From the NCBI GenBank assembly GCA_020073185.1, contig JAIQFT010000017.1, positions 1-64,000 on the forward strand: DNA of 64,000 nucleotides, in the 5' to 3' direction. Of the stretch, positions 33,757 to 39,538 are shown one piece after another (position 1 is the stretch's first letter; every line of letters begins with the position of its first letter). Position numbers and translations under genes: made by a program. Origin of the DNA: Terriglobia bacterium (GTDB lineage Bacteria; Acidobacteriota; Terriglobia; Terriglobales; Acidobacteriaceae). A model generated the notes under the pieces. That model was given only the letters and a program-made list of their open reading frames with translations, was not told the DNA's origin and did no database searches.

Positions 33757-35169
33757 ATGGCCAATGCGAAAACTGTCCTGGAGTTCGCCCAGCAGAATGG
33801 CGCGAAACTTCTGGACCTGCGCTTCACAGACCTGCCCGGGCTGTGGCATCACGTGACTTATCCCATGGACCAGGTGGACGAGAGCTCGTTCGAGGAAGGG
33901 TTCGGCATGGACGGCTCGTCCATCCGCGGCTGGGCCGCCATCCACGAGAGCGACATGCTGCTGATCCCGGATCCGGCGTGGTCCATGATGGACCCCTTCA
34001 CCGAGATCCCCACGCTGGTGATGATTGCCGACGTGCAAGACCCGGTCACCAAGCAGCGCTACGACAAAGATCCGCGCTACATCGCCAAGAAGGCGGAAAT
34101 GTTCCTCAGCTCGACCGGCATAGCCGACACCGCGTTCTTCGGCGCCGAGGCCGAGTTTTTCATCTTCGATAACGTGCGCTTCGATCAGCGCGAGCAGCAC
34201 GGCTTCTACTTCATCGACGCCGAGGAGGGCCGCTGGAATTCTGGCCGCAAGGAAAACAACCTTGGATACCGCCCGCGCTATAAGGAAGGCTATTTCCCGG
34301 TGCCGCCCACCGACCACTACCAGGACCTGCGCAGTGAAATGACGGTGACGATGCAGAGCTGCGGGTTGACCGTGGAGTGCCACCATCACGAGGTGGCCAC
34401 GGGCGGACAGACGGAAATTGACCTGAAGTTCGATTCGCTGCTCGTTTCCGCCGACCACATGATGCTCTACAAGTACATCGCGCGCAACGTCGCCAACCAG
34501 TACGGCAAGACGGTCACGTTCATGCCGAAACCGCTGTTCCAGGACAATGGCAGCGGCATGCATACGCACCAGTCGCTGTGGAAGGGCGGCAAACCGCTCT
34601 TCGCCGGCGACGGCTATGCGGGATTCTCGCAAATGGGGTTGTGGTACATCGGTGGGCTGATCAAGCACGGGCCGGCGTTGGCGGCCATCATTGCGCCGAC
34701 CACCAATTCCTACAAGCGCCTGGTGCCCGGCTTCGAAGCCCCGGTGAACCTGGCGTACTCGCGGCGCAACCGCTCCGCGGCCTGCCGTATCCCGATGTAC
34801 TCAGCGTCGCCGAAAACCAAGCGCGTCGAGTTCCGGCCGCCCGATCCGAGCTGCAATCCCTACCTGGCGTTTGCCGCCATGCTGATGGCCGGGCTCGATG
34901 GGGTGGAGAACAAGATCGATCCCGGACAGCCGCTGGACAAGGACATCTACGATCTGGGTCCGGAGGAGCTGGCCAAGGTGCCGTCCATGCCGGGCTCGCT
35001 GGAGGATGCCCTCGACGCTCTCGATCGCGACCACCAGTTCCTGCTCAAGGGCGACGTCTTTACCGAGGCGCTGCTCGATACCTACATCAAATACAAGCGC
35101 GAAAAGGAAGTGGACGCCATTCGCCTGCGCCCGCATCCCTACGAGTTCGCGCTGTATTACGACATTTAG
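33757..35169 (+). CDS. glnA: Glutamine synthetase, type I
   Basis: This dodecameric enzyme makes glutamine from glutamate, ammonia and ATP. The 470-residue protein has GSI marks: [23 protein letters not shown], the metal-binding [12 protein letters not shown], the ammonia/glutamate site segments ([18 protein letters not shown]), ATP site ([23 protein letters not shown]) and [22 protein letters not shown]. Tyr398 in IYDLGPEEL is at the position of the adenylylation tyrosine of E. coli (Tyr397), and a glnE gene follows 5 kb downstream, so control by adenylylation is likely. The start follows a purine-rich AAGGAG. A terminator follows at 35298. Confidence 0.98.
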
Positions 35170-35217
35170 AAGACGGGAGTTTGTGGGAACTGGTTTCAAG
35201 AATTGGCTCTTGGGTAG

Positions 35218-35297: not shown

Positions 35298-35324
35298 GGC
35301 CCGGCAGCGATACCGGGCCTTTTT
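35298..35324 (+). terminator. Intrinsic terminator downstream of glnA
   Basis: GGCCCGG (35298-35304) pairs with CCGGGCC (35313-35319), loop CAGCGATA, followed by TTTTT (35320-35324). Confidence 0.85.
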
Positions 35325-35530
35325 GTCTCTGGTCGTTTCCAGGATTTCCTCCGTGACGCCAGAATAGGAAGACAACAATCGCGCCCGCAACTCCCACTTC
35401 CCATCTTTTCTCAAAGCACGTCGGTAGTCTCATGAATAATTTATTAGTTTGATCTGTTGCCTAGCCAACAGGAAGTGCCCGCCACTATGTCAAGTGCCCA
35501 GTGAGTAAATAGTTAGTTTTCGATTGCACT
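35325..35530. other. AT-richer leader of the six-gene cassette
   Basis: This stretch becomes AT-rich from about 35430. It holds a direct repeat of AAGTGCCC (35473-35480 and 35492-35499, 19 bases apart) and AT-rich blocks (AATAATTTATTAG, GTAAATAGTTAGTTTT). A promoter for the cassette must lie here, but I cannot pick a convincing -35/-10 pair. The direct repeats could be operators for the small DNA-binding proteins encoded next. Confidence 0.45.
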
Positions 35531-35821
35531 GTGGCTGACACACCTGCTCTACTGTTGTTTATGCCGCTCTCAACAAATGCGGAAAATGAGTTGCTAGAAA
35601 ACGTCAACAGAAATCTCGAAGTAATTATTGGCCTGCTGCTCCGCAATTTGCCCGATGCGGACGCAGCCAATTCCCGTGGCCGAATCCTCATGCTCAGCGA
35701 AATGGGGGTGAGACCGAGAGACATAGCCAGGCTGTTGGGAAAAACCGAGAATCACGTGAACGTTACGCTGTCTCAGAGTCGCAGCGCGAAGAAAAAGAAA
35801 AACAAGAGGAGCCGCGAATGA
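35531..35821 (+). CDS. Mini helix-turn-helix protein A of the accessory cassette
   Basis: The 96-residue protein has a hydrophobic N-terminal helix (NRNLEVIIGLLLRNL), a central helix-turn-helix like sigma-factor region 4 (LSEMGVRPRDIARLLGKTENHVNVTLSQSR) and a lysine/arginine-rich tail (AKKKKNKRSRE). It is clearly related to protein C two genes on, which shares NL-VVI-LLLR and the same layout. The start is a GTG at 35531 without a clear Shine-Dalgarno; ATG at 35561 is an alternative. Its stop overlaps the next start (ATGA). It is probably DNA binding; whether it is a regulator or a structural part is unknown. Confidence 0.7.
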   Translation: MADTPALLLFMPLSTNAENELLENVNRNLEVIIGLLLRNLPDADAANSRGRILMLSEMGVRPRDIARLLGKTENHVNVTLSQSRSAKKKKNKRSRE

Positions 35822-36012
35822 AAAACTCTACTACCACGGAGCAGCTCCTGGCGGCACAGCTAGACCTTTTGAAAGACATGTTTATTGCTGAGCTGGCGCT
35901 GGCGGGCCTTCCACAGTTGGAAATCGCCAGGATTGTCCGAGTGGACCTGAATCGGGTGAATCGGATTGGCAAGTCGCTCAAGAGAAGAAAAACTGTGGCG
36001 GGAGAAAAGTGA
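35818..36012 (+). CDS. Mini helix-turn-helix protein B of the accessory cassette
   Basis: This 64-residue protein is a shorter version of the same idea: an N-terminal amphipathic helix (LLAAQLDLLKDMFIAELALAG), a sigma region 4-like helix-turn-helix (LPQLEIARIVRVDLNRVNRIGKSL) and a basic end (KRRKTVAGEK). It is coupled to its neighbours by ATGA at its start and TGATG at its end. Like A and C it seems to be a small DNA-binding subunit. No named family is recognised. Confidence 0.7.
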   Translation: MKNSTTTEQLLAAQLDLLKDMFIAELALAGLPQLEIARIVRVDLNRVNRIGKSLKRRKTVAGEK

Positions 36013-36260
36013 TGGCCGAAAACAAAGATGTGCCGGAGGAGCAATCGCGGAAACTGAATGTGGTTATCGCTTTGCTCTTGCGTCAATTGCTAGGGGACGC
36101 GGACTTCACGACAAAGAAAAGGAAAGGGACCGGTGAATTGGCCGTTTACCTGGACAGGGCTGGTCTAACCTACCAAGACATCGCGTCAATTCTTGATTCG
36201 CCAGTGGCCAGCGTTCGGGAGTTGGTTTCCCGTAGCAAACGGAAGAAGAAAAGTAGATGA
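36012..36260 (+). CDS. Mini helix-turn-helix protein C of the accessory cassette
   Basis: The 82-residue protein has an N-terminal helix (RKLNVVIALLLRQLLGDADF), a charged linker (TKKRKGTGEL), a helix-turn-helix (LDRAGLTYQDIASILDSPVASVRELVSRS) and a basic tail (KRKKKSR). It resembles protein A. ATG at 36012 shares its first base with the stop of gene B (TGATG), and its own stop overlaps the next start (ATGA), so gene order and dosage are fixed by translation coupling. Confidence 0.7.
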   Translation: MAENKDVPEEQSRKLNVVIALLLRQLLGDADFTTKKRKGTGELAVYLDRAGLTYQDIASILDSPVASVRELVSRSKRKKKSR

Positions 36261-37189
36261 CGGTTCAGGCGGTATCGGAATTCCCGGCAACAGCGCCCGA
36301 GCAGATAGAGCACTTTGCGAAACTGCTCAGCAAGTCGGAAGACAAGCGGCGTGTTTTTGGACAGATATATCGAGGCCAGAGCCAGAAGCCAAAAACTGCG
36401 GCGGAAATTGCGAAGGAGCTTCGAGGATTGACCGCCAAGCGCGTTTTGGAGATTGCGTCTCCGCTTGCGGCAAACCATCTGTTTGAGAAAACAAAAATTA
36501 ATGGTTCGATCGCTTACAAGAAGCGCTCTTCCATCAATACGGTCAAGCAGCGCATCCTGGCGCTGGCGACAAACCGCAAAAAGCTTCGTGAACATGTGAC
36601 CGTCAGAAATCCTGGTGTTCGGTCGGAGATAGTAAGAATCGAACTTGCCCCTCAATCCAGAGATGTCGCAATTGATGTGAAACATATCACCGTGGACGAC
36701 ATTGATAATTTTTCACGGGTTCGCTCGCTCAAGCACGGAAACGTGCCACAGGCGATGGACCCGGCTCGCTTACCAGAGAAAGCATTTAAGCTGGGAATCA
36801 AACGCATCCTCGGGAATCACGGTACATTTCGAGATTGGGGTGGAGAAACAAATGACCTCTTCACCACGCACATCAGAGTTAAGGGCAAGAGATACGCGGC
36901 TGCTTTTGGATTCAAAGGGCCGGGCAAGTCCGGCCTTCTCACTCCGGGTAAGATGGGCAAGAACGGCGATCAAATCCAGCGATTGTTTGAATCCACGGCA
37001 CAGGTGATGATTGTGCAATACGAAGGTGAAATCGCGGAAAGTGTTCTCACGCAGATGCAGAAACTTGCTATTGCAAATTCTGTTTCAGGGAAACAGCGGA
37101 TATTTTATGGCGCGATTGCTCTTGAAGATTCGTACCGCTTGCGACTGAAATACAGAAATCAGTTTAGGGAGCAACGGGCGCGCCGTTAG
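36257..37189 (+). CDS. Winged-helix protein with nuclease-like C-terminal half (accessory cassette)
   Basis: I do not recognise a named family for this 310-residue protein. Residues about 17-90 look like a winged helix (EQIEHFAKLLSKSEDKRRVF, TAAEIAKELRGLTAKRVLEI). Residues about 180-295 carry a conserved-looking core: FRDWGGETNDLF (D193, E197, D200), then KRYAAAFGFKGPG (K220) and KMGKNGDQIQRLFES. Acidic residues followed about 20 residues later by a lysine at the end of a hydrophobic strand would fit a degenerate PD-(D/E)XK nuclease, with the glutamate of ExK missing at the usual place. So a DNA-cutting or DNA-binding role is an inference only. The gene overlaps protein C by 4 bases. Codon use is less GC-biased than in flanking core genes. 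Confidence 0.72.
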   Translation: MTVQAVSEFPATAPEQIEHFAKLLSKSEDKRRVFGQIYRGQSQKPKTAAEIAKELRGLTAKRVLEIASPLAANHLFEKTKINGSIAYKKRSSINTVKQRILALATNRKKLREHVTVRNPGVRSEIVRIELAPQSRDVAIDVKHITVDDIDNFSRVRSLKHGNVPQAMDPARLPEKAFKLGIKRILGNHGTFRDWGGETNDLFTTHIRVKGKRYAAAFGFKGPGKSGLLTPGKMGKNGDQIQRLFESTAQVMIVQYEGEIAESVLTQMQKLAIANSVSGKQRIFYGAIALEDSYRLRLKYRNQFREQRARR

Positions 37190-37222
37190 CGGTTGGGGAA
37201 TTCTGTACCGAGGCTTGTGCTG

Positions 37223-37699
37223 ATGGACTGGTTTTCTTGGACCGGCAGTGCCGCCAGCATCGCGGGATTGATTGTGAGTGCGTTTGCACTCTACTTTGCC
37301 AAGTCTGCAAGTGAGGCAGCACGGGCCGCTAGAACGGGTGTGCGGAAGGCAAACGCCAGCGAAGCGCTTAGCAGGATAGGAGACACGGCTAATCTCTTAC
37401 AGGCGTGTGTAGAAAACGACCAACGTCACGAAGCAGTTCTGAGGGCTAGGGATTTGGTTTCTGACGTTAGTCGCTACAAACTCCGTTATGACCGTTTTCT
37501 TGATGCGGGCAGCAAAGCGCGGCTTGATGAATCGCGGGACCAGATTAGCGTTATCTCCCGATTCCTGGCCACGCGGGGGGTTCCAGAAACGCCTGCTGAA
37601 AAAAATCGTCTGCTCCGAATTTGTCACAACGATGTCGTGGCGGTCCTGAATGAAGAGTCCGCTAGAATTGTCGCTGCCATCGAGAAGGAAGACGAGTGA
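37223..37699 (+). CDS. One-pass membrane protein of the accessory cassette
   Basis: The 158-residue protein has an N-terminal membrane segment (WFSWTGSAASIAGLIVSAFALYFA, about residues 3-26) followed by an all-helical soluble part (EAARAARTGVRKANASEALSRIGDTANLL, then RFLATRGVPETPAEKNRLL). The layout, a membrane anchor plus a cytoplasmic helical domain, is typical of small effector or sensor subunits in defence islands, though no family is recognised. ATG at 37223 is preferred to an earlier TTG at 37193 because GAGG precedes it by 9 bases. Its stop shares one base with the next start. Confidence 0.7.
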   Translation: MDWFSWTGSAASIAGLIVSAFALYFAKSASEAARAARTGVRKANASEALSRIGDTANLLQACVENDQRHEAVLRARDLVSDVSRYKLRYDRFLDAGSKARLDESRDQISVISRFLATRGVPETPAEKNRLLRICHNDVVAVLNEESARIVAAIEKEDE

Positions 37700-38049
37700 T
37701 GCCTAACTACGACCCAGTGATTAACAAGCTGCTCGATAAGACTGAAGCAGGGACGCTGCCGTGGAAGCCTACCTTCGACGAAGACACGTTCATTGTGGCG
37801 CTGGAGGGCGAAGTCACCTTTGAAGTCTCTCGTGTCGAAGATGGCGGGTTTGCGTTTTCGATGAAGGATAAGGACGGCAAGAAAATCATAGATATGACGA
37901 GCCACAAGCGAGAACAGTACCACCAAGATTACGTTCCAGATGACGGCTATTTCGAGAAAATCAGCCGATTATTTGAGGCTGCACGTGTGACCGCTCTCGA
38001 AGTCGAAAAGAAGCTAAACGACGCCCAATCCTTGCTCGATAAATTCTGA
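37699..38049 (+). CDS. Small acidic protein of the accessory cassette
   Basis: The 116-residue protein starts MPNYDPVINKLLDKTEAGTLPWKP. A beta-rich first half (DTFIVALEGEVTFEVSR, GGFAFSMKDKDGKKI) is followed by a helical C-terminus (YFEKISRLFEAARVTALEVEKKL). I have the impression of related stretches in proteins near restriction or defence genes, but cannot name a family. It is joined to the membrane-protein gene by TGATG. It closes the cassette; pepD begins 28 bases later with core-genome base composition. Confidence 0.68.
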   Translation: MPNYDPVINKLLDKTEAGTLPWKPTFDEDTFIVALEGEVTFEVSRVEDGGFAFSMKDKDGKKIIDMTSHKREQYHQDYVPDDGYFEKISRLFEAARVTALEVEKKLNDAQSLLDKF

Positions 38050-38077
38050 CTGCGCGGAAATCGAAACGGAGCTGCCC

Positions 38078-39538
38078 ATGACACCTGCACTGCAAAATCT
38101 TGAACCGAAGCGGTTGTGGAAACACTTTGACGCCCTCGCTGCCATTCCCCGCGCGTCCACCAAGGAAGCCGCGGCGCGCGACTATGTTCTGGCGCAAGCC
38201 AAGCGGGTTGGCCTCACTGCCGTTCACGACCAAGTCGGCAACACCGTCATCAGCAAGCCGGCACGCCCCGGCCGCGAGAATGCGCCCATGGCCATCTTGC
38301 AGGGCCATCTCGACATGGTCTGCGAGAAGAACGAAGGAACTCCCCACAATTTCGATACCGATCCCATCAAGGTAGTACGCGATGGCGATTGGCTGAAGGC
38401 CGACGGAACCACGCTCGGCTCCGACAACGGCATCGGCGTCGCGGCAGCGCTGGCGGTGATGGAGAGCGACGACATTGCTCACGGCCCCCTGGAGTTCGTG
38501 TTCACCATTGACGAGGAAAGCGGGCTGACCGGCGCCACCGAATTTCCCGGCGGTTTGCTCAAGTCCAAGTACTTCCTCAACCTGGACAACGAAGAAAGAG
38601 GCACGCTGTGCATCGGGTGCTCGGGCGGTATCAATACCACGGCGCGCCGCAAGGTGACGCTTCGCCAACCCCGGCCGGGCGCGGCGTGGCGGATCAAGAT
38701 CTCCGGGCTGCAAGGCGGCCACTCCGGCGTGGACATCCATCGCGGCCGCGGCAACGCGGTGCGCATCCTCGGACTCGTCCTGCAACGCCTGCTCGACCGC
38801 CTTCCCATCGAGATTGCCGACCTGAAGGGTGGAAGCGCGCGCAACGCCATTCCGCGCGAAGCCGCTGCGGTGGTCGTGTTGGACGCCGGCCGTGAAAAAG
38901 AATTGCGAACGCTGCTGGCCGAATTGCAGTCCGAGATACAGTCTGACCTGGGCGGATTCGATCCCGGGCTGCAATTAGCGCTGGAAAAAGACAAAGCCAA
39001 AGCCGAAGGCGCCCCTCAGGTGCTGGACGCATCCGACGCGCGGCCAACGGTCGACCTGCTGGCCAGCCTGCATCACGGTGTGCTGGCGATGAGTCCCGAC
39101 ATCGCGGGGCTGGTCCAGAACTCAACCAACCTGGCGACGGTTGCCATCAAGGATGGAGTGGTCGAGATTGGCACCAGCCAGCGCAGCGCGATCGAGAGCA
39201 GCAAGCTTGCTGCCGCCCGCTTGGTGGCGACGGTGTGCCGCCTGGCGGGATTCGACACCGAGCACTCGACCAGTTATCCCGGATGGAAGCCGGATCCAAA
39301 CAGTGAAATCGTGCGCAAGCTGCAGTCGGCCCACCAGGAGGTATTCGGCCAGCCCGCCAAGCTGATTGCCATGCATGCCGGGTTGGAGTGCGGCGTGATC
39401 GGTGATAAGTACCCCGGAATGCAAATGATCTCGTTGGGGCCGCAAATCGAAAATCCGCACAGCCCGCACGAGCGCGTGCAGATTTCATCGGTGGAGACTT
39501 TCTGGCGCCTGCTGCGCACGGCACTGGAACGGATGTGA
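38078..39538 (+). CDS. pepD: Aminoacyl-histidine dipeptidase (peptidase M20, PepD)
   Basis: The 486-residue zinc dipeptidase cleaves Xaa-His and other unspecific dipeptides. M20 marks are LQGHLDMVCEK (first metal ligand His and Asp), GTTLGSDNGIGVAAAL (bridging Asp), FTIDEESGLTGA (general base Glu and Glu ligand), LNLDNEE (Asp ligand) and a late His in HAGLECGVI. The lid domain with GLQGGHSGVDIHRGRGNAV lies between about residues 195 and 380. The protein is full length. It begins 28 bases after the accessory cassette but looks like a core gene. Confidence 0.94.
   Translation: MTPALQNLEPKRLWKHFDALAAIPRASTKEAAARDYVLAQAKRVGLTAVHDQVGNTVISKPARPGRENAPMAILQGHLDMVCEKNEGTPHNFDTDPIKVVRDGDWLKADGTTLGSDNGIGVAAALAVMESDDIAHGPLEFVFTIDEESGLTGATEFPGGLLKSKYFLNLDNEERGTLCIGCSGGINTTARRKVTLRQPRPGAAWRIKISGLQGGHSGVDIHRGRGNAVRILGLVLQRLLDRLPIEIADLKGGSARNAIPREAAAVVVLDAGREKELRTLLAELQSEIQSDLGGFDPGLQLALEKDKAKAEGAPQVLDASDARPTVDLLASLHHGVLAMSPDIAGLVQNSTNLATVAIKDGVVEIGTSQRSAIESSKLAAARLVATVCRLAGFDTEHSTSYPGWKPDPNSEIVRKLQSAHQEVFGQPAKLIAMHAGLECGVIGDKYPGMQMISLGPQIENPHSPHERVQISSVETFWRLLRTALERM

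Follow-up and report, generated by a model that had tools for sequence, protein, structure and literature searches.

The 310-aa protein encoded near the middle of the window, which is the whole 64,000-nucleotide stretch of Terriglobia bacterium DNA that we analysed, is probably a divergent branch of a known fold: an N-terminal winged helix precedes a C-terminal domain that likely has the PD-(D/E)XK fold and most of its active site, and that may cleave DNA in a metal-dependent manner. We propose that this protein, with a predicted active site of E174, E197, D200 and K220, would be the effector of a small mobile cassette. Its partners would be one to five mini-proteins, each predicted to hold a single sigma-region-4-like helix-turn-helix (HTH) behind a short hydrophobic helix, that bind DNA beside the nuclease and probably jointly with it. 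Together they would form a composite DNA-reading surface setting the place and time of the cut, and the target would most likely be invading phage or plasmid DNA. The cassette, carried here by a soil-type bacterium, is probably a defence or self-control device. To the whole reading, in which a two-domain nuclease using E197 as an acid is aimed by mini-HTH modules at foreign DNA, we give even chances.

The cassette occupies an insert flanked by glnA (33757-35169) on one side and a peptidase gene (38078-39538) on the other. Homology to the congener G001 ends at 35324, and it returns for both G001 and a second congener, G002, from 38059. The insert has a GC content of 0.51-0.52 per kb against about 0.61 in its surroundings, and a GC3 of 0.54-0.62 against 0.77-0.85 in both flanking genes. 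Six same-strand frames fill positions 35531-38049, each abutting or overlapping the next (Table 1), and that of the nuclease is a single open frame whose mirror on the opposite strand is interrupted by stops. Compared with Pfam, PADLOC and NCBIfam, three short proteins of the six gave weak HTH-type matches and the rest nothing usable. The last two frames lie within the insert and outside the conserved core. The 168-aa frame had no Pfam match at E 1 and the 117-aa frame a weak one only (E 0.27); neither was matched in plasmids or clustered with a frame from another locus. Upstream of the operon, a search for operator repeats returned just short two-copy repeats, and the upstream DNA showed no convincing similarity to that of locus L006. 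No sigma-70-type promoter-like site was found, and terminators scored no better than in shuffles.

Table 1. Features of the inserted segment, with positions in the window and the basis of each assignment.
Feature	Positions	Strand	Basis
Inserted segment in the glnA-peptidase gap	35325..38058		Break in homology to congeners, GC, GC3
Mini-HTH, type alpha, 96 aa as listed; ATG at 35561 a plausible true start	35531..35821	+	Pfam HTH_23 and Sigma70_r4_2, below cut-off
Mini-HTH, type beta, 64 aa; start overlaps alpha stop	35818..36012	+	Mini-HTH model
Mini-HTH, type delta, 83 aa; start overlaps beta stop	36009..36260	+	Sigma70_r4_2, E 5.9e-5, 23.1 bits (cut-off 25.7)
Winged-helix and PD-(D/E)XK-like nuclease protein, 310 aa; 4-base overlap with delta gene	36257..37189	+	Frame, predicted structure
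Winged-helix domain, residues 13-105	36293..36571	+	Best VIA match, ArsR-type repressor 6j05, Z 9.8 over 91 residues
Nuclease-like domain, residues 141-310	36677..37186	+	C-domain model, structure comparison
E174 codon, first core helix	36776..36778	+	Invariant in 42/42 and 17/17 rows
E197-x-x-D200	36845..36856	+	Invariant in 42/42 and 17/17 rows
K220 codon, end of second core strand	36914..36916	+	Invariant in 42/42 and 17/17 rows
D238-Q239, start of helix after the K220 strand	36968..36973	+	42/42 rows; not kept as such in L121 and L125
168-aa frame, N-terminal hydrophobic stretch; outside conserved core	37193..37699	+	Frame
117-aa frame; outside conserved core	37696..38049	+	Frame

The model of the whole protein (pLDDT 90, pTM 0.60) begins with a winged helix of four helices and two strands (H13-24, H28-37, H48-54, H60-72, E77-81 and E84-88; block pLDDT 92-98). 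As winged helices swamped the structure search with the whole protein, the C-terminal domain was folded alone (pLDDT 92.3, pTM 0.88). Its predicted core comprises helix 174-185, strands 201-208 and 211-220, helix 235-243 and strand 250-255, the first core strand being left unassigned by DSSP; D200 stands just ahead of strand 201-208 and K220 closes strand 211-220. The structures aligning best in a comparison with VIA were AF1548 (Z 8.2, 109 residues, 3.1 A), FokI (Z 7.8, 124 residues, 4.3 A), Avs4 (Z 7.5, 130 residues), AspBHI (Z 7.0) and MspJI (Z 6.9), and by the tool's own note a best Z of 7-8 is usual for models without a clear match. This result covers the structure list of VIA, and families outside that list may still match. 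By title, the best 50 rows comprise 15 restriction, nicking or repair endonucleases, 26 RPB5-type polymerase subunits, which are non-catalytic, three Cdn1/Can2, three CD38, and one each of AF1548, Avs4 and a CdiA toxin complex. The restriction-endonuclease fold is shared by RPB5, by Cdn1/Can2 and by Avs4 in its front domain. Foldseek found no match with E below 0.001 for this domain, and its three top BFVD rows are annotated as restriction endonucleases (best E 0.006). Given these modest Z and E values, the assignment draws on the consistency of the list together with the residue pattern, and a restriction-endonuclease-like fold is likely.

These models bear out most of what the initial annotation had read from the sequence: a 310-aa protein with a winged helix at residues 17-90, then D193, E197 and D200 in DWGGETND, K220 at the end of AAAFGFK, and a helix behind that strand. 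Every one of these positions was recovered, and the helix is present and carries D238, Q239 and R242. The comparison with PD-(D/E)XK folds that it had called for found a predicted alpha-beta core with restriction-endonuclease-like enzymes heading the list, at a Z that does not exceed 8.2 and with 26 of 50 rows of RPB5 type; its view of the domain as divergent and PD-(D/E)XK-like is supported by both the fold list and the residue conservation.

Profile searches place the domain at a distance from named families. In a Pfam scan, the window nuclease and three relatives matched neither Mrr_cat (PF04471) nor the FokI cleavage domain (PF09254), while the fold similarity to FokI (Z 7.8) stays, and searches of the nuclease against Pfam, NCBIfam, PADLOC and PDB profiles gave no usable match. 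Designed armadillo repeats, the best PDB profile match (E 0.008), were judged spurious. Mrr as the parent family was rejected by profile, since hhalign against seven Mrr_cat domains yielded a Prob of 3.3 and hence no profile-level link. A family search with the FokI cleavage domain as a candidate parent gave zero matches in 199 genomes, but 14 controls likewise gave zero, so that search is uninformative. With FokI and the Mrr-like fold (Avs4, AspBHI, MspJI; the Mrr pattern being taken from the seven aligned domains), our protein probably has in common the alpha-beta core, and it shares a glutamate in helix 1, an aspartate at the start of one strand and a lysine at the end of the next. It differs from them in that the place of the ExK acid is taken by a hydrophobic residue (by Q in 1 of 42 rows), in an E197 three residues before the aspartate and in the lack of profile similarity to Mrr.

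Conservation of the putative site was followed in two alignments of the C-terminal domain, one of 42 rows with the window included and one of 17 rows that reaches the remote relatives L121 and L125. Left out of the former were L016 and L022 (both with an internal stop), L024 (front part missing), L053 (a remnant), L046 (broken) and the loci judged to be near copies (L041-L043, L045, L047); L002-L004 are absent from the 42-row alignment. All 42 rows share F152, E174, D193, G195, G196, E197, D200, K220, G221, G234, N236, D238, Q239 and R242. Part of this invariance is imposed, because the scan that yielded most rows demanded one of two motifs, one of them GKNGDQ. As 32 of the 42 rows fit GKNGDQ alone and 3 fit neither motif, D193 and E197 were not imposed by the scan in these rows, and D200, K220, E174 and R242 belong to neither motif. 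Relatives found free of any motif, namely three from tblastn and the profile finds L117, L118, L123 and L124, keep D193, E197, D200 and K220, and the four profile finds also retain D238, Q239 and R242. N236 is replaced in L123, and G195 and N236 are both replaced in L124, so the invariance of these two residues is partly imposed.

At 17 and 19% identity, L121 and L125 retain F152, E174, E197, D200, K220 and G221; both have H at the D193 position, and D238 is not kept in either, the alignment being uncertain there. E174, E197, D200 and K220 form the likelier core of the site because D193 is lost in these two remotest relatives. The homologue alignment suggested by the initial annotation thus found its four residues, D193, E197, D200 and K220, invariant in 42 of 42 rows; E197, D200 and K220 hold everywhere, D193 does not, and the conserved set is larger, with E174, D238, Q239 and R242. 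Its observation that the ExK glutamate is missing extends to the family, for residue 218 is A in 22 rows, L in 10, G in 6, I in 2 and V and Q in one each, and never D or E.

We therefore do not file the domain as an orthodox PD-(D/E)XK member: D200 and K220 (42/42, 17/17) supply the aspartate on one core strand and the lysine on the next, but the acid or glutamine two residues before the lysine is replaced by A, L, G, I or V in 41 of 42 rows and is Q in one. From the alignments, E197, three residues before D200, is the likeliest stand-in for this acid, and we read E174, in the first helix, as the additional acid usual in such sites. Our first idea was that the missing acid had migrated to D238, which occurs in 42 of 42 rows; it was dropped in favour of E197 because L121 and L125 do not keep D238 (the alignment is uncertain at this point). 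In PMC1189080, the PD-(D/E)XK superfamily is described as including variants with a lost, moved or replaced acid; PAB2104/COG1395 and NgoMIV likewise pair the fold with a lost or moved ExK acid, and PAB2104 also has an HTH domain. For PAB2104, that source proposes an acid in the helix after the strand, whereas here E197 is the better candidate, D238 being absent from the remote relatives.

The absence of the ExK acid from all 42 rows, taken with the 26 of 50 structural rows that are RPB5-type, would also suit a catalytically dead, RPB5-like domain used for binding only. We consider this improbable, as E174, E197, D200 and K220 persist over identities ranging from 76% to 17% and behind N-termini of different kinds, and we continue with an active, metal-dependent enzyme as the preferred reading.

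Relatives of the nuclease fall into two groups that differ in their N-termini and in their company. A tblastn search with the nuclease found relatives on two plasmids from actinobacteria and on one unannotated scaffold of a phage collection, and a scan of genome contigs with the alignment of these relatives yielded 48 loci. Group A (L006-L027) matches along the protein, except L024, which matches over residues 86-304 only; group B (L028-L052) matches mainly in the C-terminal domain and has a different N-terminus, and L053 is a broken remnant. A motif-free profile search added six places (L117, L118, L121, L123, L124 and L125). Among viral contigs, a first scan with the window nuclease alone found no relative, and later scans found L005, L055 and L056, all on the branch without mini-HTHs. 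At L055, an HTH frame (E 0.00085) lies at a distance of 3.9 kb; with 160 aa, it exceeds the 150-aa size limit of our counts.

Short ORFs beside the group A nucleases encode single-HTH proteins resembling sigma-70 region 4. A mini-HTH model built from 20 sequences of 11 loci was run on 4576 short frames of all loci, counting frames of at most 150 aa within 3 kb at E below 0.01; the training set and the type seeds were picked by eye. With the window counted among the 23 group A loci, 22 of them hold 70 mini-HTHs in all: 3 loci have a single one, 4 have two, 7 have three, 2 have four and 6 have five. The sole exception is L024, whose nuclease lacks its front. Among loci outside the training set, 11 of 12 were positive, with L009 weak (E 0.0028), the match of L015 1.2 kb away and L006 encoding a protein 75% identical to that of the window. 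Group B had mini-HTHs at none of 31 loci under the same size and E limits. In a blind test, three group A loci found later each had three or more mini-HTHs (the readable nuclease frame of L124 covering the C-terminal domain only), and one new group B locus had none. The initial annotation had already named the cassette; that the HTH genes are a conserved part of the system went unstated there and emerges from this linkage.

The arrangement is compact and ordered. At 21 loci, mini genes lie upstream and point the same way as the nuclease; in 20 of these, the distance from the last such gene to the nuclease frame is -7 to +39 bases. Leave-one-locus-out models sorted the mini-HTHs into five types, of which alpha occurs at 14 of 22 loci, delta at 13, gamma at 11, and beta and epsilon at 8 each; none is universal. 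A single linear order of the types fits 57 of 69 pairs, compared with a mean of 44.5 and a maximum of 56 in 1000 shuffles, each given its own best fit. Mini-HTHs and nucleases diverge in a correlated way, though weakly when L006, of the closest pair, is set aside, and this counts against the favoured reading; without L006, the Mantel r is 0.24 for alpha, 0.25 for delta, 0.33 for gamma, 0.47 for epsilon and -0.02 for beta, which shows no correlation. In 14 homologue genomes, the type-alpha model produced 28 matches in 12 genomes; 27 coincide with the cassette and the remaining one is about 100 kb distant. The mini-HTHs thus look like sigma-region-4-type units keeping company with the nuclease, and their being encoded together in near-fixed order suggests that the two kinds of protein form a complex. 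At L019 (4542-5768, Nitrosopumilus), more small proteins lie upstream of the cassette; by eye they are winged-helix-like, and they fall outside the five types.

Toxin-antitoxin systems offer another way to read this gene order. The nuclease would then poison its own cell, the mini-HTHs would act as repressors or antitoxins, and infection or loss of the cassette would free the nuclease, an idea that overlaps with targeting. A small upstream, overlapping HTH gene with the effector last is the classic layout of type II toxin-antitoxin loci, and our cassette has this layout. The same glnA-peptidase gap carries MqsR/MqsA plus an HTH_37 gene in G002, and a Gp49/HTH_37 pair followed by a duplicate of the glnA 3' end in G001; the lack of a methyltransferase match in the window cassette also fits. 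The content behind glnA varies within the genus, with toxin-antitoxin-type genes in two of three congeners and the nuclease cassette in the window; the third, G003, had no glnA match within the 14 kb fetched. No second glnA 3' end was found beside the window cassette, though G001 has one. The stretches concerned are L064 7632-7822 against window 34990-35180, L062 8524-9817, and L064 6749-7501.

Like type II toxin-antitoxin loci of the MqsR/MqsA and HigBA type, the cassette has small HTH genes overlapping an effector, appears mobile and shares a gap with them in congeners. It departs from them in having, in place of one dedicated antitoxin gene, one to five different mini-HTH genes with no universal type, and in its effector, which is of the winged-helix nuclease type. 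Four of the mini-HTHs in L008 and L017 even lie on the opposite strand. A toxin-antitoxin-like function is possible, but we find it doubtful. Since the number of mini-HTHs varies and none of their types is indispensable, we favour interchangeable DNA-reading modules that may target the nuclease over modules that merely restrain it.

The resemblance to sigma factors raises a transcription-linked alternative, in which the mini-HTHs would behave like free sigma region 4, bind promoters or RNA polymerase, and so recruit the nuclease to the promoters of phage or host. Several mini-HTHs match Sigma70_r4_2 (PF08281) in Pfam, 2 of the 11 scanned with scores above its cut-off (L022, 29.1 bits; L117, 25.9 bits). 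In 247 genomes of the window's phylum, 58 match the type-alpha model at E 1e-4; the window's own E values are 7e-25 and 1e-8 and the best elsewhere in the phylum is 3e-8. Most of these other matches fall in frames that, at about 165-255 aa, are as long as ECF sigma factors (judged by size only). A 93-aa frame in G141 is also among the type-alpha matches in the phylum. HTH similarity over so short a length is weak evidence, and the cassette occurs, by title, in archaea (L007, L019, L026); archaea have no bacterial sigma factors. We therefore rate a transcription-linked role as very improbable, and retain DNA reading by the mini-HTHs as the preferred function.

No methyltransferase family match was found in the six window cassette frames with Pfam, PADLOC or NCBIfam. 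The cognate methyltransferase that characterises type II restriction-modification is thus missing, and the type IIG systems at L009 and L020 are neighbours rather than a shared part. With no methyltransferase, host DNA would have to be spared by the absence of sites, by modification-dependence or by restraint. Modification-dependent (type IV-like) restriction, in which a modified base is what the winged helix recognises and the mini-HTHs just regulate expression, would draw on AspBHI and MspJI among the structural matches and on known winged-helix fusion endonucleases; according to PMC11037411, fusions that read N6-methyladenine mostly have no neighbouring methyltransferase. These DpnI-like enzymes share with our protein a winged helix, a nuclease domain and the usual lack of an adjacent methyltransferase, but differ from it in that the catalytic motif here is divergent and the mini-HTHs are near-constant companions (PMC11037411). 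Mini-HTHs at 22 of 23 loci, in up to five copies, exceed simple regulation, and we regard this alternative as unlikely.

For the favoured reading, aimed cleavage through several HTH units, BREX and related systems offer a parallel: according to PMC12839542, their multiple HTH units, of which one in BrxL is sigma-HTH-like, are proposed to form an extended DNA-binding surface. Here, by contrast, the HTH units are separate mini-proteins and the window cassette has no ATPase, PglZ or methyltransferase matches. Tentatively, the cassette could represent a new class: an ordered operon of interchangeable sigma-region-4-derived mini-HTHs with a winged-helix nuclease (E-x2-D...K), recognising either an extended composite site or a signature conserved in invaders, with no modification enzyme.

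The cassette is rare and patchy in the samples searched. It was found in 1 of 297 genomes of the window's phylum and 1 of 100 relatives, both being the window's own genome. In three other samples, the C-domain profile matched 3 of 398, 3 of 326 and 4 of 329 genomes, counts that take in the centre genomes and the remote relatives. Record titles, from which our phylum names are taken, assign group A to Acidobacteria, Thaumarchaeota, Alphaproteobacteria, Planctomycetes, Ignavibacteria, Verrucomicrobia, KSB1, Nitrospirales, Armatimonadetes, Chloroflexi, Doudnabacteria and Chryseolinea. Most of these genomes are MAGs, while the titles of L017 (Afipia) and L021 (Chryseolinea serpens) are not. In a tree of 20 group A nucleases from nine phyla, the phyla are partly mixed, with weak support and possible binning errors; horizontal transfer of the cassette is suggested.

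Neighbouring genes of a defence type were hand-picked by eye. They include type IIG restriction-modification at L009 and L020, an REase_II match at L011 and AbiEii at L014 in group A, and SIR2-HerA at L004 in group B. Among ten group A neighbours scanned, three had no Pfam match and others were ordinary, for instance a helicase and a phospholipid methyltransferase-type protein. PADLOC-DB 2.0.0 gave no match at E 1 for the six window proteins; of four nuclease relatives, one matched JetD (E 0.03).

The arrangement of the cassette turned up in none of our library and open-access literature searches. Titles and abstract beginnings contained no description of it, and the strings DWGGE, GKNGDQ and MGKNGDQ led, by title among the matches listed, to no nuclease paper. 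If active, the protein would define a nuclease family with a rearranged catalytic site, missed by the Pfam, NCBIfam and PADLOC 2.0.0 models and tied to modular mini DNA-binding proteins in bacteria and archaea. The cassette would be a candidate for defence overlooked by finders built on those models and, at two to six short genes, a small testable system for how separate HTH units aim or restrain a nuclease.

Relatives of the domain occur in other settings. In L121 (1492-3429, from the phylum sample around Chryseolinea), the nuclease domain is fused to a ResIII/Helicase_C helicase, possibly a single-chain restriction-like enzyme. Nine actinobacterial group B loci (L037, L039-L043, L045, L047 and L051) have the nuclease downstream of a protein of about 1030 aa with no Pfam match (tested in L041), and eight of the nine have a 456-aa-type protein in between, which in L041 is a protein kinase. 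The protein of about 1030 aa, the 456-aa-type protein and the group B nuclease may represent a second conserved system. At L004 (2196-6403) and L028 (357-4695), the group B nuclease adjoins HerA-type helicase genes, with SIR2 as well in L004.
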